IMG/VR virus record: IMGVR_UViG_3300037264_007271
Location: 1-20,059 of that record
DNA: 20,059 nt
Direction: 5' to 3' (one strand)
DNA from: a virus
Position 1 is the stretch's first letter; the number at the start of each line of letters is the position of its first letter. Shown in pieces: positions 1-15,762 of the stretch. The position numbers and the translations under genes are program-made. The notes under the pieces are model-generated. The model was given only the letters and a program-made list of their open reading frames with translations. It searched no databases and was not told the origin of the DNA.

Positions 1-106
1 GGATAGGGTCCTCCGTCCACGGCCCCGGGGCGCCGCTGCTCCTCGCCAGGTGGATGCGGTACCTCTCCCGGGCGAAGGCGAAGAATGCGTCAGTCCCGGG
101 CGTCAT
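1..106 (-). CDS. Partial N-terminus of putative DNA base hypermodification enzyme (5-hmdU kinase helical/aGPT-type)
   Basis: Only the first 35 codons are in the window; the gene continues past the left edge. The ATG at 106-104 lies inside the end of the 58-aa gene (17-base overlap). The visible protein runs MTPGTDAFFAFARERYRIHL and then ends in a PWTEDPI segment. From memory of the families, an FxFxxERxxIxL helix followed by PWTxDPIL is the usual opening of phage proteins carrying the helical domain of 5-hmdU DNA kinases and the related alpha-glutamyl/putrescinyl-thymine pyrophosphorylases. These enzymes act on 5-hydroxymethyluracil in phage DNA. The adjacent kinase and the amino acid:DNA transferase at 4396-5253 fit that reading. 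The start and frame are well supported by context. The family call rests on a short stretch and would be settled by the rest of the gene. Confidence 0.6.
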   Translation of the reverse strand, partial: MTPGTDAFFAFARERYRIHLARSSGAPGPWTEDPI

Positions 107-266
107 CGGCAACCTCCATCACGCACAGCTGAACGCCGAACCCCAGCAGGATCAGGGTCACCTCCAGCACCCACGGATGGTCCCAGTCCCAGCTGCAGCC
201 TGCCTCCATCAGGGTCACGCCCCAGAGGTTCCTCCAGTTGTTGATGAAGCCAAGGTGGATCCTCAT
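90..266 (-). CDS. Small 58-aa protein of unknown function in the hypermodification operon
   Basis: The ATG at 266-264 overlaps the TGA of the upstream P-loop kinase as ATGA, and the TGA at 92-90 lies inside the next gene. The protein is 58 residues, begins MRIHLGFINNWRNLWGV, is rich in Trp, and has a hydrophobic stretch at about residues 33-50 (VLEVTLILLGFGVQLCVM). It has no signal peptide and no recognisable catalytic motif. The hydrophobic part could be a single membrane helix or the core of a small beta fold; its spaced acidic and polar residues make me lean towards a soluble protein. Its reality rests on tight coupling at both ends within an otherwise gapless operon. Function unknown; it could be an accessory subunit of the kinase. 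Confidence 0.6.
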   Translation of the reverse strand: MRIHLGFINNWRNLWGVTLMEAGCSWDWDHPWVLEVTLILLGFGVQLCVMEVADDARD

Positions 267-1147
267 GTCGCCCCCGGTCGATTCATGAGTTCGCGGTCGA
301 ACTCGTTGACGTCTAGCTCGGCTGCGGCCTGGCGAATCCAGTCCGGTGCCCGCGCCGCTGCCTTGTCCACTGCGGCCCAGATGTCCCTGCCCGCCTCGGT
401 GTCCTCCTTGCGGAGTACGTCTCCAACGACGAACTCAGAGGCTCTCCCGGCGGCCACGTCTCCCGGGATCGCCTCCACGGTTTCCTTGACCAGGGTCTCC
501 AGGTCAGGCCCCCGTGTAGACTTCGGCACGTAGAAGTTCTCAGCTGCGCGATCTGCCGCCAGGACGAGCGCCTCGTTCATCTCCCGCCCGAGCAACCGGG
601 CGATCGAGAACAGCACCTGCGTCCTGGTCCCCCAGTAGGTCCGGACGCCCAGCTCCTTCAGTCGGTCCATGGCGAGGTGCACGCCGCGCCACTTGGCCGT
701 CGTCGTCCTCGGATCCACGTCCGGCGCCTCGGGGTTCTTCTCCCGCCTCCGGGCGTTCACGGAGGCCAGGCACTCCTCCAGCGGCAGCTGGATGGCGAAC
801 ACGATGATGTTCCGACCCTCCGCGTGCAGCGCGGCGGTCCTCTTGACGTCCCCGCTCAGGAGCAGGCCCTCGTAGAGGACGTCGAACCCCGCGCTGTCGG
901 CGCGGCGGATCAGGTCCATGGTGAAGTCGTAGGACGGGAGCGTGTCGCACCCACCGCAGGCCGTCTCGTAGTGTCCGGGCACGACCAGCCCCCGGGCTCC
1001 CGGCTCCGTGATGCCCAGTTGATAGCAGACGGGCTGTCGGCGCCCCTCGCGCTTCCACTTCATCCTCGCCCCGGGGTATTGCTCCATGATTCGGCGGACG
1101 ATGGTGCTCTTGCCGGAGCCGGAGGTGCCCTTGATTGTGATGATCAC
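263..1147 (-). CDS. P-loop kinase of the hypermodification cluster (candidate 5-hmdU DNA or nucleotide kinase)
   Basis: I place the start at GTG 1147-1145, which overlaps the phosphatase TGA as GTGA, giving 294 aa. The longer frame running upstream to 1660 would cover the whole phosphatase gene and is not the real start. The protein opens MIITIKGTSGSGKSTIVRR, a textbook Walker A (GTSGSGKST, residues 7-15). It continues with REGRRQP (33-39), a PGHYETACGGCDT block (57-69) with a CGGC cysteine pair, and a Walker B-like DVLYEG (89-94). A basic RREK segment at about 131-134 could be the lid. The C-terminal third (after about residue 175) is helical and unassigned. I recall similar GHYETxCGGCDT kinases beside phage base-modification genes. 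The likely role is phosphoryl transfer to hmdU in DNA or to a nucleotide. The kinase fold is certain; the substrate is inferred. Confidence 0.8.
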   Translation of the reverse strand: MIITIKGTSGSGKSTIVRRIMEQYPGARMKWKREGRRQPVCYQLGITEPGARGLVVPGHYETACGGCDTLPSYDFTMDLIRRADSAGFDVLYEGLLLSGDVKRTAALHAEGRNIIVFAIQLPLEECLASVNARRREKNPEAPDVDPRTTTAKWRGVHLAMDRLKELGVRTYWGTRTQVLFSIARLLGREMNEALVLAADRAAENFYVPKSTRGPDLETLVKETVEAIPGDVAAGRASEFVVGDVLRKEDTEAGRDIWAAVDKAAARAPDWIRQAAAELDVNEFDRELMNRPGAT

Positions 1148-1581
1148 GGCAGAGTCCTCGCCAGCTCGAGTGAGGCTCGGATGATGCCCTCGGTCGTCGC
1201 GATGAACTCCGGGCTCTGGTCCCGCATGAAGGCCGGGTCCTCGATGCGCGGCGCCCCAATGTAGGTGCCCAGGCAGACCGTCCTGGGCCACTCGCTGGCC
1301 GGGACTCCCTCGAGGAGGGCGCTCAGCCTGCGGTAGTTGCCCACGTCCATGTAGACCAGCAGTTCCACCGTCGGATCCAGGACCATCTCCCTGGTCACGG
1401 TTCGGGTTCGGTGCGGCGCCAGGTCGTAGCCGTGCCGCGCCATCTCCCGTCGCATCTTGCCCGCCGCGCGGCGCCCCGCGTGGGTGAACCCGGCGGAGGT
1501 GGCGTCCACTCCTATGGATCGGAGGACCGCCTCGCATGCGGGTGAGCGGTTGACGTTGCCGTGGCAGAGGACGAGGATCAC
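1144..1581 (-). CDS. Low-molecular-weight protein tyrosine phosphatase family protein
   Basis: This 145-aa protein has the size and order of the LMW-PTP/arsenate reductase-like family. The active-site loop CHGNVNRS (residues 6-13) gives the CX5R(S) signature, with nucleophile Cys6 and phosphate-binding Arg12 right at the N-terminus. The general acid is probably Asp115 in RIEDPAF, matching the family's late Asp-Pro. The family hydrolyses phosphotyrosine or small phosphomonoesters through a phosphocysteine intermediate. The ATG at 1581-1579 overlaps the amidoligase TGA (ATGA), and its own TGA overlaps the kinase GTG. No exporter or polysaccharide gene is nearby, so the usual partnership with a tyrosine kinase is not evident. 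Placement between an amidoligase and a kinase suggests work on a phosphorylated intermediate of base modification, or on host phosphoproteins. The family is firm; the substrate is unknown. Confidence 0.88.
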   Translation of the reverse strand: MILVLCHGNVNRSPACEAVLRSIGVDATSAGFTHAGRRAAGKMRREMARHGYDLAPHRTRTVTREMVLDPTVELLVYMDVGNYRRLSALLEGVPASEWPRTVCLGTYIGAPRIEDPAFMRDQSPEFIATTEGIIRASLELARTLP

Positions 1582-2504
1582 GACGGCTGCTCCGGGGTTC
1601 GACCCTCAAGGATAGCCGCGATGTTGCGAATGGCAAGATCCCGGGGGATGCTTCCGTCAAGTACCGTGAGCCGGTATCTCTGCTCCATCCAGTGGACGTA
1701 ACTGGGGAACTTGGGCCAGCCCCTGTGGGCGTAGGTTGTCTGGTAGAACCGGATGGGATCGTAACCCGGAGCCCAGTCCAGGGCCATGATCATCCAGTCT
1801 CGGCACCACGAGACGCAGGTGTCCAACTCCCCTGCGTCCAGGGTGCCGGGGAAGTGGCGGAACTCGACCGTGTCCGTCTCCCTCAGCTGCCGCACGTTCA
1901 CGGCGGCGCGGGGCTGACAGTACCAGAGGGGAACCCCGTCGTCCTTGGCGGGCACCTCTCCCTCGAAGAACTCCTGGAGGGTGAGGGCTGTCAGCTGCCG
2001 GTTCACGCGGGCCTCGGGGAGAGTCGTGTGGTGTGAGCGGAGGCGCCTTCGGTATCGGCGCATGGCGCCGATGAACTCCTCGGCGTTGCCCAGGAACTCG
2101 TTCACGTTGGGTCTTGGTATCGGCTCCACCAGCGGGAGGATCCGCTTCAGGAACCGCTGGTTGAAGAAGGCCAGCTTCTTCAGCGCCGGCAGGTCGTCCC
2201 GCAGGCCGGGGACCCGCACGTGCACGTGCAGGTTGCTGCGGTAGTTGACCACGGCATCCCTGCAAGGCCCCTGAAGCAGCTGGCTCATGAGGACCGATTG
2301 GTCGTAGGGATTGGACGTGGGGCGGGTGTTCACCTCGCCGCCGCGGTGGTGGTGCCGCCCGGTGGGGTCGACGGCGATTCCGTTCGAGTTGACCATCGTC
2401 GTGTCGCGACGATCGATGCCGAAGCCGTGGGGGAGCGGGTTGCGCTGGTCCCAGTCGGCCCACTCGTGCTCGCAGCCGAAGGTCAACCCCGTGAGATCTA
2501 TCAT
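1578..2504 (-). CDS. Amidoligase family protein (glutamine synthetase-like fold)
   Basis: The start is ATG 2504-2502, overlapping the flavoprotein TGA (ATGA), for 308 aa; the longer upstream frame runs back into that gene. Motifs occur in the order expected for the Amidoligase_2 family. These are an early acidic metal/ATP site GCEHEW (10-15), GGEVNTRPT (55-63, like the family G-E-hydrophobic-x-T-P motif), NLHVHV (91-96), and EFRHFPGTLD (214-223). These enzymes are relatives of glutamine synthetase and gamma-glutamylcysteine ligase. They are predicted to form amide or isopeptide bonds at ATP's expense, on small molecules, peptides or surface polymers. Here the enzyme sits between a DAO-type flavoprotein and a phosphatase, downstream of an amino acid:DNA transferase. 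It may therefore add an amide or amino acid to the modified base. The family call is strong; the substrate is a guess from context. Confidence 0.85.
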   Translation of the reverse strand: MIDLTGLTFGCEHEWADWDQRNPLPHGFGIDRRDTTMVNSNGIAVDPTGRHHHRGGEVNTRPTSNPYDQSVLMSQLLQGPCRDAVVNYRSNLHVHVRVPGLRDDLPALKKLAFFNQRFLKRILPLVEPIPRPNVNEFLGNAEEFIGAMRRYRRRLRSHHTTLPEARVNRQLTALTLQEFFEGEVPAKDDGVPLWYCQPRAAVNVRQLRETDTVEFRHFPGTLDAGELDTCVSWCRDWMIMALDWAPGYDPIRFYQTTYAHRGWPKFPSYVHWMEQRYRLTVLDGSIPRDLAIRNIAAILEGRTPEQPS

Positions 2505-3322
2505 CTCACCGCCTCCAGGATCCTCTGCGCCGCCCACCCGGCGGCGATGGTGCCGTTCTTCCCGCCCCCGGTGACGATCCACAGGCCGGGCTCCCGCTCC
2601 TCCAGGTAGCAGGGCTTGCACTTCGGCACGAAGGGGCGGATGCCGGTCAGGGCCGTCGCCCGGGCGGGGTCCAGCTTCGTGGCGCCGGCAACGCGGGTCA
2701 GGCACGTCGCCTGCCGCTCGATGGTCCAGTTCTCGGTCTTGATGGCGGATCCGTCCCCGGCCCAGATGGTCATCGGGTCCTGGTTGAACGCCACCAGCTG
2801 CTTGTACGGCGCCCAGGGGCGGATGAAGGGGGTCGGGATCTGGCCCCGCCAGAGGAACGACACGCCCTTCTTCCCCGTGAGCCCGGGTACGGGCAGCAGC
2901 TTCCCGGTCCAGACGCCCGCGGCGACGACCACGATATTGGCGTCGAATCGCATGCCGTCGACCTGCACGAATCGCTGGCCAACGGCCTCCACGGTCCCCT
3001 CCCAGAAGTCCACCGTGGGGTCGCGGAGGATGTTCTCCGGCGCCACCCGGAACACCGGGAAGAAGGCCCGCGTCGGCGGGATGGCGAACTGCAGCGTCTG
3101 CACGCCGTAGAGGCGGTCCAGCAGGGCGAGGCTCGGCTCGTGTACGTCCCTGCCGAGGCCCGCGAACCAGCTGGGCTTCATCAGGCAGGCCGAGGGGCGG
3201 CTACCGCTGTCTGGCCGCAGGTCATCGACGACCACCACCTTGGCCCCCGCATCGTGCAGGGTGCGGGCGACGATGGAGCCGAACAGGCCCGCGCCGACGA
3301 CTATCACCTCGGGGTCCGTCAC
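2501..3322 (-). CDS. DAO-family FAD-dependent oxidoreductase (glycine oxidase-like; candidate flavin lyase)
   Basis: I take GTG 3322-3320, which overlaps the stop of the 64-aa gene as GTGA, giving 273 aa. An ATG at 3349 would overlap that gene by 31 bases. The N-terminus EVIVVGAGLFGSIVARTL carries the GxGxxG dinucleotide-binding loop (10-15), followed by VVVVDD at the end of the second strand. ANIVVVAAGVWTGKLLP in mid-protein is the usual DAO ATG-like FAD contact. GGGKNGTIAAGWAAQ near the C-terminus (about 252-266) is the second FAD-binding loop. It is shorter than typical D-amino acid or glycine oxidases (around 350-390 aa). In studied phages, flavin-dependent lyases trim glycine installed on thymidine; an enzyme of this class next to an amino acid:DNA transferase fits that job. 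A free amino acid oxidase remains possible. Confidence 0.8.
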   Translation of the reverse strand: MTDPEVIVVGAGLFGSIVARTLHDAGAKVVVVDDLRPDSGSRPSACLMKPSWFAGLGRDVHEPSLALLDRLYGVQTLQFAIPPTRAFFPVFRVAPENILRDPTVDFWEGTVEAVGQRFVQVDGMRFDANIVVVAAGVWTGKLLPVPGLTGKKGVSFLWRGQIPTPFIRPWAPYKQLVAFNQDPMTIWAGDGSAIKTENWTIERQATCLTRVAGATKLDPARATALTGIRPFVPKCKPCYLEEREPGLWIVTGGGKNGTIAAGWAAQRILEAVR

Positions 3323-3513
3323 GGGCTGGCGAACTTCGCGGGGGTCCACTTGCGGGTCTCCGGCTCGAAGATGAGGAAGCCGTCAGGCGGGAGTCGCTTG
3401 ATGGCTGCGGCGTAGGACATGGGCTTGTCGGTGAATAGTTGAATCGAGGCGCCCAGGAGCTTTGCCTCCTGGTGCGCCTCGCGGTAGGTCTTCGTCTTGA
3501 TCTTGGGTCGCAT
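3319..3513 (-). CDS. Small basic 64-aa protein of unknown function
   Basis: The ATG at 3513-3511 lies 4 bases after the TGA of the dockerin-like gene, and its TGA overlaps the flavoprotein GTG. The protein begins MRPKIKTKTYREAHQEAKLL, so it is strongly basic at the N-terminus, and later has PPDGFLIFEPETRKW. It has no signal peptide or membrane segment. The pattern suggests a short alpha/beta protein, perhaps a nucleic-acid- or partner-binding accessory. I do not recognise the family. Its reality is supported by exact packing between two well-supported genes. Confidence 0.6.
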   Translation of the reverse strand: MRPKIKTKTYREAHQEAKLLGASIQLFTDKPMSYAAAIKRLPPDGFLIFEPETRKWTPAKFASP

Positions 3514-3517
3514 GAAC

Positions 3518-4399
3518 TCAGTCCCAGCTGCCGAGGGTCCCCAGCAACTCGGGGATGCCGACCGTCATCATAGGCGCGGCGAAGTCCGCGGGGCAGGGTT
3601 CCGGCATCCCCGGGCAGCCGCCCCAGCTGGAGATGATCTCGAGGAGGTCGCCCATGCCGACCAGGCCATCTCCATCGACGTCAGCCTCCTCATCCTCCTC
3701 GCCGATCATCTGCGAGGAGCCGATGACGTAGAACCATCCCACCTGCTGGGCCACGGTTGCCTGACCATAGGGGGAGAGGCCGATGAGCGCCTTGCCCTCG
3801 AGTTCCCAGTAGGGGGTCGGGTAGGTGTATGAGTGGAGCGCCACGGTGGAGGTCAGGGCGCCCTGGTCGAACCGGAGCAGCTCGACTCCGTCCACGAGCA
3901 CGCGATAGGACACGTCGTTGCTGGCATCATCCGAGATCTCCCGGATGAGGCGGATGGCGTGGGGCGTGGAGGCGTCGATGTCCGCGACCACCGGCTGCTC
4001 ATTGAACAGAGCCCAGGGGGAGTTGGGATCAAGGAAGATCTCCTTCACGCCGATCTTCGTCGGAGTGACCGTGATGACCTGGGCGGAGGTGTCGAAGATC
4101 CCGAACGAGAGGGAGCCCTCCTGGATGCCGAGCAGGGTTTGCTCGATCACGTACTCGCTGGGGGCCGCGACGTCGCGGCAGAGGTTGTTGCCCTCCTCGT
4201 AGAGGATCCAGTCCTCGAAGAGGAGGGGACTGATGCTCTCGTAGAGGCACATGCCGTAGATGCCTGACCCGTAGAGGGTGCCGCCATCCACTTGACCCTG
4301 AACCTGATCCACGTTGAAGTCGAACGACCACGGCTCCGCCTGGGCGTAGACCACGTTGCTGACGCCGAGGAGGATGATGATGGGCCAGGACTTTCTCAT
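3518..4399 (-). CDS. Secreted protein with C-terminal dockerin-like EF-hand repeat
   Basis: This 293-aa protein starts at ATG 4399-4397, overlapping the transferase TGA (ATGA) with AGGAG just upstream. The N-terminus MRKSWPIIILLGVSNVVYAQ is a signal peptide, with cleavage likely near VYA or AQA (residues 19-21). The middle (about 25-225) looks like a beta-rich extracellular domain of unknown type, with an acidic EEDEE linker before the tail. The C-terminus (239-293) holds DVDGDGLVG, a calcium loop, followed by a DLLEIISSWGGC helix. A second, degenerate repeat follows: CPAD is kept, the calcium-loop acidic residues are lost, and it ends ELLGTLGSWD. Such paired GDLLxxxxxWG repeats are typical of dockerin-type tails of Planctomycetota secreted proteins. 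A secreted host-like protein inside a DNA-modification operon is unexpected and may be acquired. Function unknown. Confidence 0.82.
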   Translation of the reverse strand: MRKSWPIIILLGVSNVVYAQAEPWSFDFNVDQVQGQVDGGTLYGSGIYGMCLYESISPLLFEDWILYEEGNNLCRDVAAPSEYVIEQTLLGIQEGSLSFGIFDTSAQVITVTPTKIGVKEIFLDPNSPWALFNEQPVVADIDASTPHAIRLIREISDDASNDVSYRVLVDGVELLRFDQGALTSTVALHSYTYPTPYWELEGKALIGLSPYGQATVAQQVGWFYVIGSSQMIGEEDEEADVDGDGLVGMGDLLEIISSWGGCPGMPEPCPADFAAPMMTVGIPELLGTLGSWD

Positions 4400-5253
4400 G
4401 ACTCACTCCTTGTTGGTAGGGCGATCTGGAACGCCGCGGCGAGCTCGCTGTCGGCGACCCACTTGTCTATGGAGTGTCCTATCTCGGTTATGTCGTTCCA
4501 CAGCGGGTAGTGGCCGCTCATGTGGCTCTTCCATTTGCAGAGGATCGTCTCGATCTCCTGCAGGTTGATCCCTCGGTCGCGGGTGGGGGGCGCCTTTCGA
4601 TCGGCGAAGGCGTCCTGGAGGTACTGGACCACCGTGCGAAGCACCCCCTCCCGATCCCGGGGGTTGGCGTAGTCCACCAGCTTGTTGACGTTTCTCCAGA
4701 GCATGATCGCAGCCTCGACGGGCTGCTCGAACATGAACACGTGGCCCATGTCGAAGTTGATGTGATGGCCCAGGCAGCGGTCCAGCATGTCCGCCACCTT
4801 GAAGGCGATCCAGTCGCCGAAGAGGTAGTGACGCTTGACCTCGGCCATGACGGCGCCGATCGAGGGCTGCACGGAGCGGAGCCTGTCGATCATCCGGATG
4901 GGCTCGGGGTAGGCCCACTCCAGCTCCCTGACTGCCTTGATCGCCTTGCCGCCGCGGAAGTGGCGGCGCTCCTTGGCGCGGGGCCACCTTCCCACTGGGG
5001 AGGGCTTCTCGTTGGTCGCCGCGGTCACCATCCACTCCCAGAAGGGCAACCCCTCCTCCGCCATCCAGCAGGCCACCCCAGCGTCGTAGAAGCACCAGTA
5101 GGCCACCAGCCACCGGGCGATCTGCTCCTCCGGCCACCCGAAGTCGGTGCGGCAGCGGTGCAGGGCGACGTAGATGGGATCGAGATCCTCGGTGTCCAGA
5201 AGGTGGGCGCCGAAGGTCTCGATGCTGAGTCGGGGGTATGCCTGCGTTCCCAT
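4396..5253 (-). CDS. Amino acid:DNA transferase / alpha-glutamyl-putrescinyl-thymine pyrophosphorylase family
   Basis: This 285-aa protein starts at ATG 5253-5251, 4 bases after the preceding stop. Conserved-looking blocks are LDPIYVALHRCR (24-35), RWLVAYWCFYDAGVACW (47-63), GRWPRAKERRHFRG (88-101), FGDWIAFKVADMLDR (145-159) and NFDMGHVFMF (166-175). I recognise this series, especially the AYWCFY, RWPR-ERRHFRG and FGDWIAFKxADMLxR motifs, as the phage family that attaches amino acids or polyamines to phosphorylated 5-hydroxymethyluracil in DNA. Its helical scaffold is thought to be related to HhH DNA glycosylases. It leads the run of coupled genes down to base 1 and should define the first adduct on the base. 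I cannot tell from sequence which amino acid or amine is used. Confidence in the family is high, from memory of motifs. Confidence 0.82.
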   Translation of the reverse strand: MGTQAYPRLSIETFGAHLLDTEDLDPIYVALHRCRTDFGWPEEQIARWLVAYWCFYDAGVACWMAEEGLPFWEWMVTAATNEKPSPVGRWPRAKERRHFRGGKAIKAVRELEWAYPEPIRMIDRLRSVQPSIGAVMAEVKRHYLFGDWIAFKVADMLDRCLGHHINFDMGHVFMFEQPVEAAIMLWRNVNKLVDYANPRDREGVLRTVVQYLQDAFADRKAPPTRDRGINLQEIETILCKWKSHMSGHYPLWNDITEIGHSIDKWVADSELAAAFQIALPTRSES

Positions 5254-5257
5254 GGCG

Positions 5258-5737
5258 TCAGACCACCAGCTTGATCACGCCCCGCTCGTCCTCGACCAGG
5301 CCGTAGCCCAGGTAGGTGTGCAGGATGCGGATCCCCTCGTAGGTGTTGCGGAAGTCCCAGCCGGTGGCGGCCATGCACTGCTCGATCGTGGCGCCGCTGT
5401 GCAGGAGCTGGACCAGCTTGGCTCGGTTCGTCCCCTCCCGGTGGGGCTTCTGGTTGCTGCGGGCCGGGAGGTTCAGCAGCTTGCGCCGGGCCTTGGAGGG
5501 CTTGCCGCTCATGGCGGCCTTCTTCGGAGTGCTCTCCTTCACGGCGACCGCCGCGGCCTCGGCGAGGCCAATGGGGCCGGACTGGGCCCCCAGGGCCTTG
5601 ATCGTCCGGGCGATGCCCGTCTTCCGATCCGAGAACTTCTTGACGGACTGGCCCGTCAGCTCGTTGAACGTCCGGACCAGCTCCGTGCCGTTCATCGCCT
5701 CGATGGCCTCCTTGGTGATCACTGCAGTCGCGGACAT
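5258..5737 (-). CDS. DUF3489-like putative DNA-binding protein
   Basis: The ATG at 5737-5735 has GAGGAG about 8 bases upstream, giving 159 aa; in-frame codons further upstream cross a hairpin-bearing gap and are not needed. Residues 11-40 (AIEAMNGTELVRTFNELTGQ, then SVKKFSDRKTGIAR) match a common N-terminal module in phage and proteobacterial proteins annotated as DUF3489-like. A basic linker (about 70-102) precedes KLVQLLHSGATIEQCMAATGWDF, which reads as a helix-turn-helix of the type found in that family. The protein probably binds DNA. Because it comes first after the 91-base gap and just before the transferase, it could regulate the modification operon or be a small nucleoid-type protein. 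Function not established. Confidence 0.7.
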   Translation of the reverse strand: MSATAVITKEAIEAMNGTELVRTFNELTGQSVKKFSDRKTGIARTIKALGAQSGPIGLAEAAAVAVKESTPKKAAMSGKPSKARRKLLNLPARSNQKPHREGTNRAKLVQLLHSGATIEQCMAATGWDFRNTYEGIRILHTYLGYGLVEDERGVIKLVV

Positions 5738-5772
5738 TGGACTCTCCTCGTAGTTGGCTTGGATGAAAGAAC

Positions 5773-5805
5773 GCCCCAAGTCTCCCATGGGGGAGGGCTC
5801 GGGGC
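5773..5805. other. Interrupted inverted repeat (possible RNA hairpin) in the gap before the modification operon
   Basis: The arms are GCCCC (5773-5777) with GGGGC (5801-5805) outside and CTCCC (5782-5786) with GGGAG (5791-5795) inside. The loop is ATGG, with a 4/5-base internal bulge. It lies in the 91-base gap between the lipoprotein stop and the next start, one of the few real gaps in the window. On the minus strand it is followed by GTTCTTTC, a weak T-rich tail. It could be a terminator or attenuator separating the replication block from the modification operon, or a chance GC-rich fold. I see no convincing promoter boxes in the gap. Confidence 0.35.
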
Positions 5806-5828
5806 AAGAAGATTCTCGAGGAAATCTC

Positions 5829-6218
5829 TCAGTGAGGGTTGCCGTGATCCCCGTCGTGGCCGGGAGGGGTGAAGCCCCCACCCTCGGCGTTGCTCTCGGA
5901 GCGACTATCGGACTCGGACAGGGAGACGCTGCCCGCCGCGCCCCCGCTGGCGCTCGAGGTGACGGTCGTGCGGGCCGGACGCACCAGAGCCCCGCCCGCG
6001 GCCTGACCAGCCGCCCCCGCCACCTGAGCCATTCCCGGAGGGCCTCCGACGTAGCCGATGGGCTGGCCCTCGAAGAGGAGCACCGTGGCGCTCGGCTCGA
6101 AGATGGTCGAGCGGGAGACGAAGGTCACGCCCTCCTTCGTGGTGTAGGAGTTGACGCACCCTGCCATCAGGGAGAGGAGGGCCAGGATGAGTAGACCGAG
6201 GAGGAGACGGGGACGCAT
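5829..6218 (-). CDS. Putative phage lipoprotein
   Basis: With the ATG at 6218-6216 the protein is 129 aa and starts MRPRLLLGLLILALLSLMAG followed by Cys21, a signal peptide with an LMAGC lipobox. An alternative ATG at 6236-6234 overlaps the helicase TGA (ATGA) and adds six residues (MKGIPS). I prefer 6218 because AAAGGA lies about 9 bases upstream of it. The mature part has a compact region (YTTKEGVTFVSRSTIF, then a GQPIGYVGG turn). The tail from about residue 60 is low-complexity, rich in Gly, Ala and Ser, and ends in a His/Asp-rich segment. It should be anchored in a membrane. It might be an outer spanin or an exclusion lipoprotein, but no inner spanin or endolysin is next to it, so I leave the role open. 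Confidence 0.7.
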   Translation of the reverse strand: MRPRLLLGLLILALLSLMAGCVNSYTTKEGVTFVSRSTIFEPSATVLLFEGQPIGYVGGPPGMAQVAGAAGQAAGGALVRPARTTVTSSASGGAAGSVSLSESDSRSESNAEGGGFTPPGHDGDHGNPH

Positions 6219-6232
6219 GGACGGGATTCCTT

Positions 6233-7450
6233 TCATCGAACGATTGTGAGACTTTCCGACGCCCGGGTGACCGCGGTGTACAACCACGCCCGGGCCGCCT
6301 GGCTGAACTTCTTGCTCTCGTCGAACACGAGGACCTTGGGCCACTGGCTGCCCTGGGACTTGTGCACCGTCAGGGCGTAGCCGAAGTCGAACTCCTGGGC
6401 GTCGCGGCGGGTCCAGTGCTCCACCTCCTGGCCCATGAAGGGGGCGAGGTGCGCCATGACGTCTAGGTGGGCGCCGTCCTCGGACTCGATCGTCAGGGGG
6501 ATCTGGTCCTGGTCCGCCGAACCCGCGGCGAGCACCTTCCAGATGGCCCCGTTCATCAGGCCCTCCTGGTGGTTGTTGCGCAGGCAGACCAGGCGGTCGT
6601 TCGCCTCGGGGAGGTGGGTCTTGAAGCCCAGCAGCTCCCGCATGCGCTGGTTTGTCCCTCGCCGCAGCTTGTTGGTCCCGACCAGGATCTGATCCACGGC
6701 CAGGGCGTCCTCCGGCTCCACGTCCGCCCAGTCGATGACCCGGCTGGAGCCATAGGTACCCTCCTCCAGCTTCTGTCCCTCACGGACGGCGGTGGCGAGC
6801 TGGATGATCGGGTTCCCCCGGGCCTGGCGATGGATCTCCGTCAGCATGGCATCGGGCTTGCCGTTGGTGAAGAAGCCGGTGCCCATGACGGGCGGCAGCT
6901 GGGCCGGATCTCCGATCACGAGGATCTTCGTCCCGAAGCTCAGCAGGTCCTGACCGATCCGCTCGTCCACCATGGAGCACTCGTCGATGATGACGAGGCT
7001 CGCGTCCCGCACCACGCTCTCCGAGTTGAGGGAGAAGGAGGGCCTCTTGAGTAGCTTCGTCTCCTCGGCTATCTTCCCCCTGATCTCCCGCACCTTGATG
7101 GAGTCCGGCTCCACGAGGAGGAGATCGGTGAGCTCCCCCTGGAGCGTCCGAAGCCGCTCGCGACTCTTCTCCCTGGGGACATAGATGAGGCGGTGGATGG
7201 TCGTCGCGCCCATGCAGCCGCGCTGGCTCATGACGTAGGCGGCCTTGCCGGTGAAGGCGGCGAATAGGGTCATTCCGCTCTGCATCCGGGCCAGGTGCTT
7301 GGCTAGCTCAGTCTTGCCGGTCCCGGCGTAGCCGAAGAGCCGGAAGATCTGCTCCCGTCCGGATCGCAGCCAGCTACCTACGTCATCCAGCGCGGCGGCC
7401 TGCTGGGGGGACCAGACCACGGACTGGGTGGTGGAGGGGGGATCGCTCAT
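6233..7450 (-). CDS. SF1B DNA helicase, RecD/Dda type
   Basis: This 405-aa protein carries the ordered motifs of RecD2/Dda-type 5'-3' helicases. They are Walker A GYAGTGKT (40-47), TGKAA (67-71), ATTIHRL (82-88), Walker B IIDECSM (154-160), motif III GDPAQLPPV (180-188), HKSQGSQW (363-370) and motif VI YTAVTRA (391-397). Its length is close to T4 Dda, a helicase that helps remodel forks and recombination intermediates. The ATG at 7450-7448 has no obvious Shine-Dalgarno and sits just after a strong hairpin. The stop sits at the start of the lipoprotein region. It belongs with the SNF2 helicase and the SSB-like protein in the replication/recombination block. Confidence 0.93.
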   Translation of the reverse strand: MSDPPSTTQSVVWSPQQAAALDDVGSWLRSGREQIFRLFGYAGTGKTELAKHLARMQSGMTLFAAFTGKAAYVMSQRGCMGATTIHRLIYVPREKSRERLRTLQGELTDLLLVEPDSIKVREIRGKIAEETKLLKRPSFSLNSESVVRDASLVIIDECSMVDERIGQDLLSFGTKILVIGDPAQLPPVMGTGFFTNGKPDAMLTEIHRQARGNPIIQLATAVREGQKLEEGTYGSSRVIDWADVEPEDALAVDQILVGTNKLRRGTNQRMRELLGFKTHLPEANDRLVCLRNNHQEGLMNGAIWKVLAAGSADQDQIPLTIESEDGAHLDVMAHLAPFMGQEVEHWTRRDAQEFDFGYALTVHKSQGSQWPKVLVFDESKKFSQAARAWLYTAVTRASESLTIVR

Positions 7451-8415: not shown

Positions 8416-8952
8416 TCAGGTGCCTACCTGGGCGACTCGTCGACGGAAGATTCCGAATAGGTCGAGGGGCAGGTCCCTCCCGCCCTTCAGCTGCTCGCGG
8501 GCGAACGCCCGGAGAGTTGCCGATTCGACCTTGGTGTCCTGCTCCACGGAGGAGAAGTTGCCGACCAGCTGGTCCGCCAGCCGCTGAGCCTCGTCCTGCT
8601 GCTCCCGGGAGAACCGGACGGTGACGTTGCGCTTGATCAGTCCGCCGAACCCGTTGTCGTCCAGCCACTTCATGGCCTCGTCGTGGCGGCTCTTGGGGAT
8701 GCTGGCAAAGATGTTGACGTCGACCTTCACCTTCAACCCGGAGCTGGTCCTGAACTCCTCCAGGCCCAGCTGGTCCATCAGGTCCGGCAGCTGACGCTCG
8801 GAGATGTCGCGGTGCCGCTCCTTGGCGGCCTCCATCAGCTTCTCCAGCTCCAGCATCTCCTTCTGAGCGAAGTGCATCTGGCGGGTCAGGGCCTCGAGCT
8901 GCTGGAACTCGGCGGCCACCGGCTTGTCGAGGTATTCTGTGTAGTCAGGCAT
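8416..8952 (-). CDS. Coiled-coil phage protein of the replication module, function unknown
   Basis: With ATG 8952-8950 (MPDYTEYLDKPVAAEF) the protein is 178 aa. ATG 8964 (adding MIDG) is an alternative that overlaps the SNF2 gene by 8 bases. Residues about 13-60 are a charged heptad-like helix (LEALTRQMHFAQKEMLELEK and on), predicting a coiled coil. A short beta segment (GLKVKVDVNIFASI) follows, then a helix pair containing KWLDDNGFGGLIKRNVTVRF. Its pattern of a long helix plus a small alpha/beta domain is common in phage proteins next to SSB-like and nuclease genes. I do not recognise a named family. It may be a recombination mediator or structural partner. Confidence 0.65.
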   Translation of the reverse strand: MPDYTEYLDKPVAAEFQQLEALTRQMHFAQKEMLELEKLMEAAKERHRDISERQLPDLMDQLGLEEFRTSSGLKVKVDVNIFASIPKSRHDEAMKWLDDNGFGGLIKRNVTVRFSREQQDEAQRLADQLVGNFSSVEQDTKVESATLRAFAREQLKGGRDLPLDLFGIFRRRVAQVGT

Positions 8953-8956
8953 GCCG

Positions 8957-10453
8957 TCAATCATTCCCCAGGTTGGACGGTAAGGCAAGGGGCCGGATCA
9001 AAGTTTCCTGCCGGAGGTGGTCGTGGAGGATCCGGGCGGAGATCAACTCCTTCCGCTGGAGCGCATCCGCGATCCGCTCGTCCACGGTTCCCTCGCACAC
9101 CAGGTCGATGTAGTTGACCGGGTGCGCCTGTCCGATGCGGTGGGCGCGGTCCTCGCTCTGGAGTCTCTTCTCCAGGTCGAAGTCGTTGTTGTAGTAGATC
9201 ACCGTCCTCGCGGCGTGCAGGGTCAGCCCAGTCCCTCCCGCCGCGGGGTTGCCGACGAAGTATTTCACCTCGCCAGCCTGGAATCGGTTGATGGCGGCGG
9301 TGCGATCGTCCTCCCCCACCTTTCCATCGTAGCGAACGACCTGGTCGCCCAGGAGGCCGCAGATCAGGTCGATGTCCCGGGTGAAGTTGGCCCAGATGAT
9401 CGCCTGGTGCGGGACCTCATCGAGGAGATCCTCGAGGGCGTAGAGCCGGGCGTTGAGCTCGGGGAAGTCCAGGCAGGCGGAGTTGAGATCGCTGGGCAGG
9501 TAGCCCGAGAGGATCTGGCGGAGCCTCAGCTCCCGCGTGATGGCCAGCGGCGCCGTGAGCGGCTCCCCGGTGGCGAGGAATGTCACGAAGTCGTCCCGGA
9601 TCTCGCGATAGTGGCGCGCCTGCTCGGGACTCATCTCGAACGTGCGGGTGCTGTATAGCTTGGGCGGCAGGTCCAGCACCTCCGACTTGACGACTCGGTT
9701 GGAGATGGTCGACAGCAGCTTGTTCAAGCTCTCCAGGCTCCGGAACGCGAGCAGCTTCTGGAACTGCCTGTGGCCGAGGCGCAGCTGCTCCCAGACGCCG
9801 AAGGTCGTCTTGAACGCGAGGTACGAGCCCAGGCCGTGGCGGGACCAGAAGGTCTCGTCCAGGAACTTGATGGGGGCGTAGACGTCGAAGGGGCCGTTGG
9901 CCACGGGGGTTCCGGTGAGGATCCGCCGGTAGGAGGCGTGGCAGCCCTCCGCCACGATGGCTCGGGTGCGCTTCGCGGCGGGGCTCTTGATCCTCCGCGA
10001 CTCGTCCAGGACGAAGAGGACCCGGCGGCTCTGCAGGAACTTCCGGGCCAGGAGGCGGCCCCGCTTCGTCATGAAGCCGTCGTAGCCCATGGCGACCACC
10101 ACGAACTCCGGTCGGGCGTGGACCTTCTCCATCTGCTCGAGGTACTTAGCATTCCTCCTCTGGCTGCTGAAGACGAAGGTGTAGGTCCGCTCCAGCACCC
10201 CCTCGGGCATGTGCTGCACCAGCTCCCGCAGGACCCAGTTCTGGTGCACTCCGTTCGGGGCGATCACCAGCATGCCGTCGATCTTCCCCGTCTGGAGCAG
10301 CCACGCCGCGGTGTCGATGATGAGCTTGGTCTTCCCCGTCCCCTGCTCCCAGAAGATGGCGCGGCTCTCGTCGTCCCTGTGGGCCAGGAACTCCTCCAGC
10401 TGGTGGCGGAACGGCTTGGTGCGGAACTGGTACTCGGCAACCTGGCTGCTCAT
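8957..10453 (-). CDS. SNF2-type (SF2) DNA helicase/ATPase
   Basis: This 498-aa protein starts at ATG 10453-10451, overlapping the previous TGA (ATGA). It has FRHQLEEF as the Q-like lead, Walker A EQGTGKTK (36-43), DESRRIKS in place of DEAH/DESH (150-157), LTGTPVAN (179-186) and motif VI QSEDRAHRIGQ (432-442). The last is diagnostic for the SNF2 family. The two RecA lobes are complete and there is no extra nuclease domain. Compact SNF2 proteins like this are frequent in phage replication blocks, where they are thought to translocate on dsDNA and help replication, recombination or removal of bound proteins. The gene directly follows a putative metallopeptidase gene and precedes the coiled-coil gene. 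Confidence 0.93.
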   Translation of the reverse strand: MSSQVAEYQFRTKPFRHQLEEFLAHRDDESRAIFWEQGTGKTKLIIDTAAWLLQTGKIDGMLVIAPNGVHQNWVLRELVQHMPEGVLERTYTFVFSSQRRNAKYLEQMEKVHARPEFVVVAMGYDGFMTKRGRLLARKFLQSRRVLFVLDESRRIKSPAAKRTRAIVAEGCHASYRRILTGTPVANGPFDVYAPIKFLDETFWSRHGLGSYLAFKTTFGVWEQLRLGHRQFQKLLAFRSLESLNKLLSTISNRVVKSEVLDLPPKLYSTRTFEMSPEQARHYREIRDDFVTFLATGEPLTAPLAITRELRLRQILSGYLPSDLNSACLDFPELNARLYALEDLLDEVPHQAIIWANFTRDIDLICGLLGDQVVRYDGKVGEDDRTAAINRFQAGEVKYFVGNPAAGGTGLTLHAARTVIYYNNDFDLEKRLQSEDRAHRIGQAHPVNYIDLVCEGTVDERIADALQRKELISARILHDHLRQETLIRPLALPSNLGND

Positions 10454-11310: not shown

Positions 11311-12602
11311 GTCGCGTGGCTGCCTCGGAAACCATCCATGTCATACCTCCAGGCCTCGACGCACCGGGTCCCGCCGATGAATCCCTGGGCGTGGTGCCAG
11401 GCGTCGGCGTTGCAGAGGCTGGGGTTGGTTCGGATCAGGACGCCGTTGTTGGGCGTGACGGACTGGTACATGTGCTCGCGGTGCTGGTGGGTGTGGCCGA
11501 TCTGGATCTCCCGGTACTTCACCTGGGACCAGACCTCGCGGCACTCCTCGGCCATGATCAGCGCCAGCTGCTGAGCCTTGCACTTCTGGCCGTGCTCGAA
11601 GCCTATGAGGGTGCGGCCGTGCACCCGGTACTTGCGAGGGTTGAAGTCCAGGTCGGCGACCACCCGGGCGTCGTTCCGGTACCGCTGGGCGAGCGCCGCG
11701 ACCAGGGTGAAGCTGGTGGCCAGGTCGTGGTTGCCCGGGACGTAGATCAGCTCGAGGTGATTGGTCAGCTGCAGAGCCGTCTCGATCATGTAGGCCAGGC
11801 AGCGGAGCGCCTCCAGGTAGACCTTGCCGTACCGGGAGTCAGTGTCCAGGTAGTGCTCACCGAAGGTCGTCTGGGCCTTGGCGTTGTCGAAGTGCATGAA
11901 GTCGTTGCCGATGGGCATCAGGATCTTCGAGACGGGGTAGGGCCTCAGCTCCTCGGCCATGTCGTCGATGGAGTTGAACACCCGCCGAGCCGCGATCTTC
12001 AGGTCGTAGTCCTCACCCACCTCGCCCCGCCAGGCGTGCATGCCCAGGTGCGTGTCCCACAGGCCCCAGCTCACCATGAAGCCGGGCCTGCGCAGCTCCG
12101 TGGTGCGAACCCGTCGCGGGGGCGCGGGCTTGGCCACCAGGTTCTCCCGCATGAACTCCAGGATGGCGCTCTCGATGTACTCGGTGACGACCCGCTTCCA
12201 GGACACCCTCGTCTGCCACAGCGCCACCTTCTGGTGGCTGCCGGTCGGCAGCTTGTAGAAGCCCTGCCACTCGTTGGCCCGCAGCGCCGTGGGGATCCAC
12301 TTGGTCTTGTCGATCCCGAAGAGGACGTACATCTCCTCCAGGGTCCGGGGCCGGTCGGGGGTCAGGATGTGCGTCTCCCCTCCCACAGGGCCGCGGTCGT
12401 CGATGGGCTTGTTGAGCTCCTCTCGGGGGATCTGCCCGGTCGCCCGGTCGATCCCCGCCTCGGGCAGGATGCTCTTGCAGTGCTTGTGGGCCGTGGAGCT
12501 GTTGATCCCCAGCTGCTCGCCTATCGCCCGGTAGGATAGTCCCTCGCGGCGCAGCTGGATGATCTTATGTTGTATGTCGTCGGGGAGGCGGGGGTTGGCC
12601 AA
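11262..12602 (-). CDS. Metallophosphoesterase with N-terminal HTH domain
   Basis: This 446-aa protein starts at TTG 12602-12600, supported by GAGGT about 8 bases upstream within the previous gene's stop region. Residues 5-45 form a homeodomain-like HTH (IIQLRREGLSYRAIGEQLGI, then NSSTAHKHCK), as in transposase or terminase small-subunit N-termini. After a linker, residues 178-380 carry the calcineurin-like phosphoesterase motifs DTH (183-185), GND (232-234), GNHD (290-293), His337 and GHTHQH (369-374), which bind two metals. The nearest functional relatives are SbcD/Mre11-type nucleases or phosphodiesterases. Phage proteins with this layout sit with helicases and are presumed nucleases. DNA binding by the HTH and phosphodiester cleavage are inferred. 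The stop overlaps the next small gene. Confidence 0.88.
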   Translation of the reverse strand: MANPRLPDDIQHKIIQLRREGLSYRAIGEQLGINSSTAHKHCKSILPEAGIDRATGQIPREELNKPIDDRGPVGGETHILTPDRPRTLEEMYVLFGIDKTKWIPTALRANEWQGFYKLPTGSHQKVALWQTRVSWKRVVTEYIESAILEFMRENLVAKPAPPRRVRTTELRRPGFMVSWGLWDTHLGMHAWRGEVGEDYDLKIAARRVFNSIDDMAEELRPYPVSKILMPIGNDFMHFDNAKAQTTFGEHYLDTDSRYGKVYLEALRCLAYMIETALQLTNHLELIYVPGNHDLATSFTLVAALAQRYRNDARVVADLDFNPRKYRVHGRTLIGFEHGQKCKAQQLALIMAEECREVWSQVKYREIQIGHTHQHREHMYQSVTPNNGVLIRTNPSLCNADAWHHAQGFIGGTRCVEAWRYDMDGFRGSHATCARDDISSSNESFHL

Positions 12603-12612
12603 AGGGTCTACC

Positions 12613-12849
12613 TCAGTGCTGCAGGGCAGCCTTGATGCCGAGCCAGAGAACGGTCGCGAGGCCAGCCAGGGCGATGCCGATCAGGGTGATGATGCTCTTC
12701 GAGCGGACCTGCCGAACGCCCTCGCGGAGCTCGCGGAGGAACTGGAAGTCCTGCTGCATCTCGAAGGGGTCGGTGTACCGCAGCCCCAGGGAGGTGAGCG
12801 TGTTCTTGACGGTCTTGTGGATGAGCTCCTCCAGCTCCTCCTTCGTCAT
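12613..12849 (-). CDS. Small single-span membrane protein (DUF6127-like)
   Basis: I choose ATG 12849-12847 (MTKEELEELIHKTV), with GGAGGAGGGG ending 12 bases upstream, giving 78 aa. ATG 12873 or TTG 12882 would add up to 11 residues. The N-terminal two-thirds is an acidic amphipathic helix with coiled-coil character. Near the C-terminus SIITLIGIALAGLATVLWLG is one membrane helix, followed by a short tail. This layout matches small proteins often found beside phage tail or gene-transfer-agent tip genes (DUF6127 as I recall). It follows the tail-tip gene directly. It could be holin-like or a tail-assembly accessory; no endolysin is adjacent, so I do not call it a holin. Confidence 0.7.
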   Translation of the reverse strand: MTKEELEELIHKTVKNTLTSLGLRYTDPFEMQQDFQFLRELREGVRQVRSKSIITLIGIALAGLATVLWLGIKAALQH

Positions 12850-12894
12850 AGTGATCTTCGGCCCCTCCTCCATGGTACTCAATCATAGCTCCAG

Positions 12895-15762
12895 TCAGAT
12901 GACCAGGATGGCGTAGGCGTCAGGCCCCGCCGTGGGCGCCACCAGCTCCATGAAGGTCTCCGTGGCGTTGGAGCCCCCCTGCGTGTGCCGGACCTCGATG
13001 GTGTCCGCCGCCACCACCCCGGGCAGGGTGCCGGTCACGTTGCCGGTCGCTATCACGGTCACGAAGCTGCCCGCGTTGATCCTGGCCTCGAGGATCCCGG
13101 AGGACAGTAGGTTGCTGCCGATGTTGAACGTGTACGTCCCGGTATCCGGCGCCGTGTAGACGGTGCTGATCTCGGAATCGTCCAGCGTCGTGAAGTTGAA
13201 GTGGCCCGCGATGGTGTTGAACTCGACGGTGAAGTCGTGGTCGAGGGTCTGCTGCGCCGCGAGGGAGAGATCCGTCTCGAAGTCGTGCCGCGCCCGGATC
13301 CGCACGCCCAGGTCCGTGGGTTGGACGCCGTTGGTGAACCGCAGGACCCTGCGACGCAGCACCTCGATGGGCGCGGCGCCGTCCTCCAGCGGAGTGGTGT
13401 AGAGGGTGGTCGGGGTGCCGCCCGGATCCTCGATGACGTCGATCTCGTACTCGGTGCCGTTGAACGCGGGGAAGTCCGGTTGGATGGATGCCGCGTCCAC
13501 GGTAAGCCCCTGCACCTCGTCGGCCGTCCTCCAGTCCCGACGGATGAACTCAACCTCGAGGTGGGGGTCGTCCAGGCCGGAGCCCAGGTCGTCCAGGTCC
13601 ACGGGGCCGGGCTCGTAGAGGACCGCGTTGATCTCCGGGAGGATCGGGGGGTAGGGACGCCGGTCCCGCCTGCCCATGGAGAAGCTGATGGTCGTCGCGC
13701 TGCCCGACGCCACCTGGTCGGTGAGGCTCCTGGGCAGCAGCCGCACGTCCACGTTGTTGTTGATGGGCAGGGAGGTGCCCGACATGCCGCCCCCGACGAA
13801 GATGAGGTAGACGGGGGTCCCCGCGACGTGGAGCTGGGGCGTCGTGTCCAGGAGACCCCGGTACACGTTGGCGAGCCTCAGGTCCCCGCCGACGGAGGTG
13901 CCGTCCTCGGCGGCGATGAACTCCCCGCCGACGTACATCAGCTGGGCGAGGCTCACCCCGATCTGGCTGGGGGAGACGGGGGTGAAGGCCGCCACCAGGG
14001 TCGCGACGGCATCCGGATCCGGGTCCACGTCCACGGTGGCCTGGGGGCTCGCCCCGTCCCGCTCCAGGTCGGCCTCCAGCTCCCCGATGAGCATGAAGGC
14101 CACCACCGTCCCGTCGTTCGCGAAGGCCCCGGAGGGGCTGCCGGAGGCATTCCGCTGGGTCAGGTCGAATAGCACCGCCCCGTCCCCCTGGTTGCGCCCT
14201 GCGGCCCAGACGCGGCTCCTGGTGCCCGGCTGGGCCGGATCCCGGAAGATGAAGGCGTAGGGGGCGGGGAAGGCCAGCTGCTGGGCGGAGGGGAAGGGTA
14301 CCAGGCTGTCCTGCGGGGGGTCCCAGCCCGTGGCCGGGGGGTTGGAGAAGGAGCCCGCGGCGAACTGGAAGATGTCCTGGACCAGATCCAGGGTGATCCG
14401 TCCATCCTGGAGCTCGCCCAGGTCGATCTTGGTGATGCGCATCGGCAGCTGGGTGAAGCCGAGCTGGGCGTCGGTCCAGGCCACCACGTCCCCGGGATCC
14501 AGGTCCCAGAAGGTTCGATCCACCACCAGCTTGGCCTTGGCCAGGGGGTAGGAGAGGCCGCGGAGGTCCCGCCAGGCGATGCTGTTGGCCAGGGCCGCGT
14601 CCTTGACGCCCGGATAGGTCTCCTGGGCGATGATGTTCTGGCCAGCCTGGATTCGGACGTTGGCCATGTCCTGGGCCTTCGCGGACGTGTCGAAGTAGCC
14701 CCGGGCGCGGTCGGTGAAGTCGACGTTGACGTGGTTGGTGGTGTCCTCCCAGGCTCCGCGGGCGAAGTCGGAGATCTCCAGGATGTTGCCCTCGTCCAGC
14801 TGGGGCACGTCGTCGATGTCGTAGCCGCCTCGGGCCAGGTTGATCTGCCACTTGCCCGAGGAGCGGGAGTAGATCACCAGGCCGTCCATCTGCTTCTCGA
14901 GGATCCGCAGGAGCTCCAGCGCCTCCATGCTGCGGTCCAGCACCATGCTGAAGCCGTTGCCCTCGGTGATCAGGGTGCTCGCCGCCGCGGTGAAGTTGGT
15001 GGTGTCGATGGTGGCCGCCGGGAGCCCGAGGCCCCACTCGGCGTTGGTCAGCAGCTCGTAGATGACGTTGGCGGGGTTGGCGTCGAAGGTGTTGATGGTG
15101 GGGGTGCCCAGGGCGAGGCCGTTCGGGATGCGCTGCACCTCGAAGGACCAGGGCTTGATGCTCGTGCTGTTGCCGATGTAGCCGCCCTCGAAGACGCCGT
15201 AGCAGGTCCCGACGTAGCCAGGTGTATCGCCCCCCTCCAGCTGGAACTCCGTCAGGTACGTGTTGGGCGCCTGCACCTCCGTCCCCAGCTTGAAGCTGAA
15301 GTCGCCCACGATGCCGCCGTTGCCCAGGTCATCCCCGCCGTAGAAGTTGGGCTGGTCAATCGACGTCGTGGCCTCGCCCAGGGTGCCGCTGAACAGCTCC
15401 TCGTCGCCGACCCAGATGCGCCTCAGCGAACCAACCGGGCCGCGGCAGAGGGCGAACTGGATGCCGACGAAGTATTTGAATCCCACGGCCTGACCGCCGC
15501 CAGCGAAGAGGCCGAAGAAGGCCAGGAGGCCGCCGCCGCTGGGGTCCTGGGTGATGGCGACCTGGGAGGTATCTCCGTACCAGACTACGTTGGGGCCGTC
15601 GATCTTGACCGTACCCCAGATGAGCGGGACGATGCGCCCCTCCGTCGCGGTGGGGAAGTTGAACGTCGGCTTGCCCGGCTGCTGCTCCTCGGGCTTGGGG
15701 CGCAGGAGCTGCGTGAGGACGAAGAACCCCACGAATAGAAGCAGCATCAGGAAGAAGGCCAT
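12895..15762 (-). CDS. Tail tip / host-specificity protein (gpJ-like, Phage-tail_3 region)
   Basis: This 955-aa protein starts at ATG 15762-15760, sharing one base with the previous TGA. It opens with a hydrophobic segment (AFFLMLLLFVGFFVLTQLL), then RIVPLIWGTVKIDGPNVVWYGD, the characteristic lead-in of gpJ-like and gene-transfer-agent tip proteins. Residues about 230-250 (NPANVIYELLTNAEWGLGLP) and about 420-470 (DLDPGDVVAWTD, then MRITKIDLGEL and DGRITLDLVQD) are typical of the Phage-tail_3 family. The last third is beta-rich, with Thr/Gly repeats, and probably makes host contact. It forms the tail tip or baseplate hub. The N-terminal hydrophobic stretch is common in this family and need not mean membrane anchoring of the virion protein. 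It follows the BR0599-type protein, as expected. Confidence 0.9.
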   Translation of the reverse strand: MAFFLMLLLFVGFFVLTQLLRPKPEEQQPGKPTFNFPTATEGRIVPLIWGTVKIDGPNVVWYGDTSQVAITQDPSGGGLLAFFGLFAGGGQAVGFKYFVGIQFALCRGPVGSLRRIWVGDEELFSGTLGEATTSIDQPNFYGGDDLGNGGIVGDFSFKLGTEVQAPNTYLTEFQLEGGDTPGYVGTCYGVFEGGYIGNSTSIKPWSFEVQRIPNGLALGTPTINTFDANPANVIYELLTNAEWGLGLPAATIDTTNFTAAASTLITEGNGFSMVLDRSMEALELLRILEKQMDGLVIYSRSSGKWQINLARGGYDIDDVPQLDEGNILEISDFARGAWEDTTNHVNVDFTDRARGYFDTSAKAQDMANVRIQAGQNIIAQETYPGVKDAALANSIAWRDLRGLSYPLAKAKLVVDRTFWDLDPGDVVAWTDAQLGFTQLPMRITKIDLGELQDGRITLDLVQDIFQFAAGSFSNPPATGWDPPQDSLVPFPSAQQLAFPAPYAFIFRDPAQPGTRSRVWAAGRNQGDGAVLFDLTQRNASGSPSGAFANDGTVVAFMLIGELEADLERDGASPQATVDVDPDPDAVATLVAAFTPVSPSQIGVSLAQLMYVGGEFIAAEDGTSVGGDLRLANVYRGLLDTTPQLHVAGTPVYLIFVGGGMSGTSLPINNNVDVRLLPRSLTDQVASGSATTISFSMGRRDRRPYPPILPEINAVLYEPGPVDLDDLGSGLDDPHLEVEFIRRDWRTADEVQGLTVDAASIQPDFPAFNGTEYEIDVIEDPGGTPTTLYTTPLEDGAAPIEVLRRRVLRFTNGVQPTDLGVRIRARHDFETDLSLAAQQTLDHDFTVEFNTIAGHFNFTTLDDSEISTVYTAPDTGTYTFNIGSNLLSSGILEARINAGSFVTVIATGNVTGTLPGVVAADTIEVRHTQGGSNATETFMELVAPTAGPDAYAILVI

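Follow-up and report, generated by a model that had tools for sequence, protein, structure and literature searches.

The first 5.3 kb of a 20,059-base viral fragment (IMG/VR record IMGVR_UViG_3300037264_007271, analyzed over its whole length and hereafter called the window) carry what appears to be a thymidine hypermodification operon of the type known from the Pseudomonas phage PaMx11, but with a different last step. In the reading that we favor, with some reserve, a predicted amidoligase of the glutamine synthetase (GS) superfamily, encoded next to a low-molecular-weight phosphatase (LMWP), acylates the amine of the modified base, so that the product would be a new amide-bearing base. The thymidine modification pathway itself is strongly supported by sequence homology; the base amine as the acylated position is moderately supported, from context, and the identity of the acyl donor and the role of the phosphatase weakly so. 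A preliminary description had named six gene types in positions 1-5253, namely an amino acid:DNA transferase, a DAO-type flavoprotein, an amidoligase, an LMWP, a P-loop kinase and the start of a further protein related to 5-hydroxymethyldeoxyuridine (5-hmdU) kinases, and profile, PDB and fold matches recovered all of them on the minus strand (Table 1).

The transferase matches the Pfam ADDT profile (PF18724, E=1.5e-18), the family whose absence would have spoken against that description, as well as phrog_6364 (8.5e-84). In the PDB it retrieves 8z2m, labeled 'Glycinyltransferase' (E=3e-69), and the amino acid:DNA transferase 25qc (E=2e-82), and it shares 47% identity with M6 gp51 and its relatives; by these similarities it is a probable glycinyltransferase. 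The flavoprotein combines a DAO domain (4e-12) with matches to phrog_16743 (3.3e-74) and to the PDB entries 8z2o and 8z79, 'Flavin-dependent lyase' (E about 3e-75), while its best NCBIfam model is the ThiO glycine oxidase, followed more weakly by the C-terminal domain of MnmC. The latter domain converts carboxymethylaminomethyluridine to aminomethyluridine in tRNA, which is the chemistry expected of the window flavoprotein; by homology this enzyme would convert an N-glycyl adduct to 5-aminomethyl-dU. The kinase, whose open reading frame (ORF) was scanned as 263-1186 with a GTG start at 1147, scores above the cut-off of PF18748 (HMUDK_HMUD1, 2.6e-7), and a 5-hmdU kinase occupies the corresponding place in PaMx11, M6 and the sewage phage Simon. 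Finally, the 34 codons at 103-2, which are all that the fragment retains of the last gene, reach 33.5 bits against the 5-hmdU kinase helical-domain profile (HMUDK_hel), the best of 2000 shuffles reaching 4.5 bits.

The closest characterized counterpart is the gp46-gp51 cluster of PaMx11, which has, in the same order, a transferase, a flavin lyase, a tailoring gene, a kinase, a helical protein and a thymidylate-synthase homologue, and whose first two proteins are about 47-49% identical to those of the window. The tailoring gene of PaMx11, the acetyltransferase gp48, lies between the lyase and the kinase, exactly the slot held here by the amidoligase and the LMWP; because of this replacement the window system is like that of PaMx11 but not identical to it. 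The Pseudomonas phages M6/YuA, which make 5-aminoethyl-dU, have in common with the window the transferase, kinase, helical protein and flanking Dda-like helicase, and also possess a thymidylate-synthase homologue, but they have a pyridoxal phosphate (PLP) enzyme and a radical S-adenosylmethionine (SAM) enzyme in place of the flavin lyase, and neither an amidoligase nor an LMWP. Conversely, neither the M6-type PLP enzyme nor the radical SAM isomerase was found in the window, where the lyase stands instead. Simon (PQ683277.1, unannotated) encodes the complete cluster with its order unchanged, amidoligase (44% identity) and LMWP included, and further along it has HMUDK_hel (1.3e-42), Nmad5 and a thymidylate-synthase homologue, a candidate dUMP hydroxymethylase. 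It differs by one additional gene between lyase and amidoligase (L001:14337-14996; loci are cited by our own numbers), possibly nuclease-like but without a Pfam match. The window gene order is also kept in about a dozen uncultured phages, and most window-type relatives share the succession transferase, lyase, amidoligase, LMWP, kinase, helical protein and thymidylate-synthase homologue. With this conserved order and the homology to the solved PaMx11 enzymes, the earlier suggestion of thymidine hypermodification is strongly supported. The thymidylate-synthase homologue was not found within the window; as the record is itself a 20-kb viral fragment, this missing 5-hmdU synthesis gene tests nothing.

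The amidoligase falls just below the Pfam threshold (Amidoligase_2, 21.3 against 22 bits, E 2.8e-4). A scan with the single window sequence found no relatives, which an alignment-based search did recover; querying the PDB by sequence with this profile returned chance matches only, and fold comparison was needed. The AlphaFold2 model (alignment of 18 sequences; pLDDT 95.3, pTM 0.92) has as its top fold matches YbdK, GshA, the bifunctional enzyme GshF and the glutamine synthetases, with Foldseek E-values from 1.7e-4 to 1e-2 and VIA-align Z scores near 10 across some 220 residues. Across 56 deduplicated relatives 21 positions are at least 97% conserved, among them E12, E14, E57, H95, R199, E214, R216 and H217. 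The GS-like fold taken together with these invariant residues makes the assignment firm, and the modeled protein very probably functions as a member of the GS superfamily that ligates carboxylates to amines at the expense of ATP. The phage amidoligases of Amidoligase_2 (PF12224) share with it the GS-like fold and the C-terminal catalytic motif; the window type is a diverged subfamily, nearly confined to viruses and ADDT clusters. Among 50,697 phage records it occurs only in Simon and, distantly, in a Vibrio phage, and 84,980 prokaryote species genomes yielded one relative, on a contig of a metagenome-assembled genome, whereas IMG/VR holds at least 115.

The LMWP has intact catalytic residues: C6, R12, S13 and D115-P116 are invariant in 18 sequences, and the CX5R(S/T) loop and the DP acid are each present in 97 of 98 LMWP matches. 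It is fused to the amidoligase as a single ORF in L023 (LMWPc 5.6e-16, Amidoligase_2 5.5e-5) and, judged by sequence, again in L174. All eight amidoligase lineages that lack the LMWP have E209 replaced by Q, and they also differ at H93, N91, R153 and D34. These differences hint at a more negatively charged ligand and would fit a phosphorylated co-substrate; they are confounded by descent, although on the amidoligase tree the LMWP state must have changed independently three times or more to account for its absence. We set lower the idea that the LMWP cleans up unreacted phosphorylated 5-hmdU, which is probably not its role since its occurrence tracks the amidoligase rather than the kinase. Beside the amidoligase in clusters without LMWP lies a radical SAM enzyme (L040:6686-7972, L048:9732-10928, L172:8843-9900), with a SPASM-like C-terminus in L040 and L048, that may perhaps provide another tailoring step.

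To examine the tailoring slot more broadly, flavin-lyase loci were gathered independently and their gene content was scored with purpose-built profiles. The 46 distinct clusters with transferase and lyase comprise 18 with the amidoligase, 14 with a PaMx11-type acetyltransferase, 14 with neither and none with both (Fisher p=1.7e-4, or 2.4e-4 at 70% clustering, both assuming independent lineages). Some of the loci sampled (L001-L030) had in addition been reached through the amidoligase, which may raise the share of amidoligase clusters but cannot create the non-overlap. The LMWP accompanies the amidoligase in 14 of 18 clusters and is found in none of the 28 others (p=1.3e-8, independence again assumed). 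The amidoligase is also found with the M6-type aminoethyl branch (PLP and radical SAM enzymes) in three clusters; in L069 a DNA-methyltransferase-like ORF (8720-9478) fills the tailoring slot that separates the flavin lyase from the kinase. Recurrence, slot position, the non-co-occurrence with the acetyltransferase and the fusions support the proposal that the amidoligase and the phosphatase are new tailoring steps.

We therefore regard acylation of the base amine as the simplest reading, because the amidoligase occurs with two amine routes and never with the acetyltransferase; an amine-bearing base is what the lyase clusters (aminomethyl) and the clusters with PLP and radical SAM enzymes (aminoethyl) would have in common. 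In this scheme a thymidylate-synthase homologue encoded outside the window would make 5-hmdU at the nucleotide level, and the kinase and helical protein would phosphorylate it in phage DNA. The transferase would then exchange the phosphate for glycine, and the flavin lyase would release glyoxylate from the glycyl adduct so that 5-aminomethyl-dU is left; the steps up to this point are predicted by homology. The amidoligase would join an ATP-activated carboxylic acid to the amine to give N-acyl-aminomethyl-dU, and the LMWP would assist it, perhaps by taking a phosphate off the acyl donor or off the product. Because the gamma-carboxylate of glutamate is what the nearest solved enzymes with this fold activate, gamma-glutamyl is our default guess for the transferred acid; the substrate suggested for the LMWP is likewise a guess.

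Several observations weigh against this proposal. The cluster counts are not phylogenetically independent: about 15 state changes are reconstructed on the transferase tree, well-supported branches force only a few of them, and phylogenetic paired tests leave two usable pairs and lack power. On the same tree the window sequence lies, without strong support, among acetyltransferase-bearing relatives (L039, L035). The GNAT profile, made solely from sequences of the PaMx11 type, could overlook other acetyltransferases. Moreover, 28 of the 57 amidoligase lineages belong to a second widespread cassette type (loci L025-L027, L113, L114, L116, L117, most of L120-L171, and L174), consisting of a standalone class-II glutaminase with an N-terminal Cys, the amidoligase, the LMWP, a distinct divergent ADDT and another P-loop kinase, and nearly all of these cassettes are without a lyase or PLP enzyme. 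Of 55 second-cassette loci, 43 contain a member of a family represented by a Tet_JBP dioxygenase, and no thymidylate synthase was found in the viral records searched, which are possibly incomplete, although the L027 record does have one; the second cassette is probably a TET-started base hypermodification pathway. As nearly all of these cassettes lack an amine-forming enzyme of either kind, the DNA-side substrate of the amidoligase need not be an amine everywhere.

It is mainly because of this second cassette that an alternative has to be retained in which the amidoligase would act on the amino-acid adduct and turn its carboxylate into an amide, the glutaminase of the second cassette supplying ammonia. 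Amide ligation on phage DNA has a precedent, the only one that we found: in Synechococcus phage S-B43 the AsnB-like ligase CmoY of the CmoX/CmoY system couples 5-carboxymethylcytosine to glycine in an ATP-dependent reaction (PMC12783734). That system differs from ours in acting on cytosine, through a carboxymethyl handle, with an AsnB-type ligase and with the carboxylate borne by the base. In window-type clusters, however, the lyase would remove the very carboxylate in question, and the amidoligase avoids the candidate for amine acetylation while it does occur with the M6-type amine branch; amidation thus appears unlikely to us. Less likely still is a role away from DNA, in which the amidoligase and the LMWP would prepare a small molecule, a dipeptide for example, as the donor for the transferase. 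Its GS-fold neighbors GshA and YbdK do produce free gamma-glutamyl compounds, but this transferase belongs to the glycine type, the cluster retains the lyase that fits a glycyl adduct, and in PaMx11 the corresponding slot is filled by a tailoring enzyme. That the two genes are mere cargo, modifying for instance the cell wall or a host protein as in the module of other phage amidoligases predicted to act on peptidoglycan (PMC11945000), is highly improbable given the ADDT gene beside the amidoligase in 51 of 57 lineages (deduplicated at 90% identity) of two cassette types, the slot position, the fusion with the LMWP and the absence of co-occurrence with the acetyltransferase.

Extending acylation of the base amine to the whole family, one could picture a widespread, nearly virus-only amidoligase-phosphatase module that ligates and then dephosphorylates a phosphorylated acid, yielding an as yet undescribed class of bases, amide-capped aminomethyl or aminoethyl thymidines, and that also serves the TET/JBP-started glutaminase pathway; this broader model is doubtful, if a little less so than amidation of the adduct. 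Three of the six lineages without ADDT are cut near a contig edge. Two amidoligase relatives that lie away from ADDT, those of L002 (Vibrio phage 2.275.O) and of L012, are found near 7-deazaguanine-type genes (QueF, QueD and GTP cyclohydrolase in the former, a QueE-like radical SAM enzyme in the latter), and in L024, L030 and L119 the amidoligase adjoins a PLP enzyme and radical SAM enzymes, with no ADDT or thymidylate synthase detected in the virus. One cluster, L056, has three tandem paralogous 5-hmdU-kinase-like genes (12160-14040).

Table 1. Genes of the probable modification operon, from the transferase to HMUDK_hel in order of transcription, followed by two neighboring genes
Feature	Position	Strand	Evidence or remark
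Amino acid:DNA transferase, probable glycinyltransferase	4396..5253	-	PF18724, PDB 8z2m/25qc
Secreted-looking ORF, EF-hand/dockerin-like C-terminus	3518..4399	-	ATGA overlap with transferase
64-aa ORF	3319..3513	-	no significant Pfam match
Flavin-dependent lyase homologue (DAO fold)	2501..3349	-	PDB 8z2o/8z79, phrog_16743
GS-fold amidoligase, ATP-dependent carboxylate-amine ligase (predicted)	1578..2504	-	Amidoligase_2, AlphaFold2, fold matches
LMW phosphatase, obligate amidoligase neighbor	1144..1581	-	LMWPc 1.4e-10
5-hmdU DNA kinase (P-loop)	263..1147	-	HMUDK_HMUD1; GTG start overlaps LMWP stop
Start of HMUDK_hel (5-hmdU DNA kinase helical-domain protein), cut by window end	1..103	-	profile match
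Conserved small protein just upstream of transferase	5258..5881	-	phrog_7790 5.3e-16
Dda-like helicase, conserved flanking gene	6233..7450	-	phrog_325 1.4e-100

The four-base overlaps at the junctions of the ADDT gene with the next ORF, of the flavoprotein with the amidoligase, of the amidoligase with the LMWP and of the LMWP with the kinase suggest that the genes are translationally coupled. The single coupled run of the preliminary description holds for these four junctions, but two ORFs that it had passed over separate the transferase from the flavoprotein. The larger of these, which bears two EF-hand/dockerin-like motifs, had no match in the Pfam and NCBIfam family scans; C-termini of this style are common in Planctomycetes and may hint at the host. 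The small phrog_7790 protein, homologues of which precede the transferase in L010, L013, L018, L020, L021, L023, L028 and L029, probably belongs to the modification neighborhood. The Dda-like helicase flanks the cluster in PaMx11, M6 and Simon as well. Otherwise the gene content past 5.3 kb, which includes an SNF2-type helicase and genes for tail and head, is unremarkable for a tailed phage.

In their abstract, Lee et al. 2022 reportedly name radical SAM isomerases, PLP decarboxylases, flavin lyases and acetyltransferases, and also refer to combinatorial gene sets in viral metagenomes. A literature search, beyond whose reach that paper lay, found none tying an amidoligase to thymidine hypermodification. 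Hypermodification of phage DNA blocks restriction, and longer side chains stop more enzymes (PMC6449724). If our proposal is right, amide-bond formation and a coupled phosphatase would join the tailoring steps of thymidine, and a new family of bases is predicted. The enzymes from Simon and about 55 other lineages could then place amine- or acid-bearing groups on DNA, and the amidoligase would be a sequence marker for such phages.

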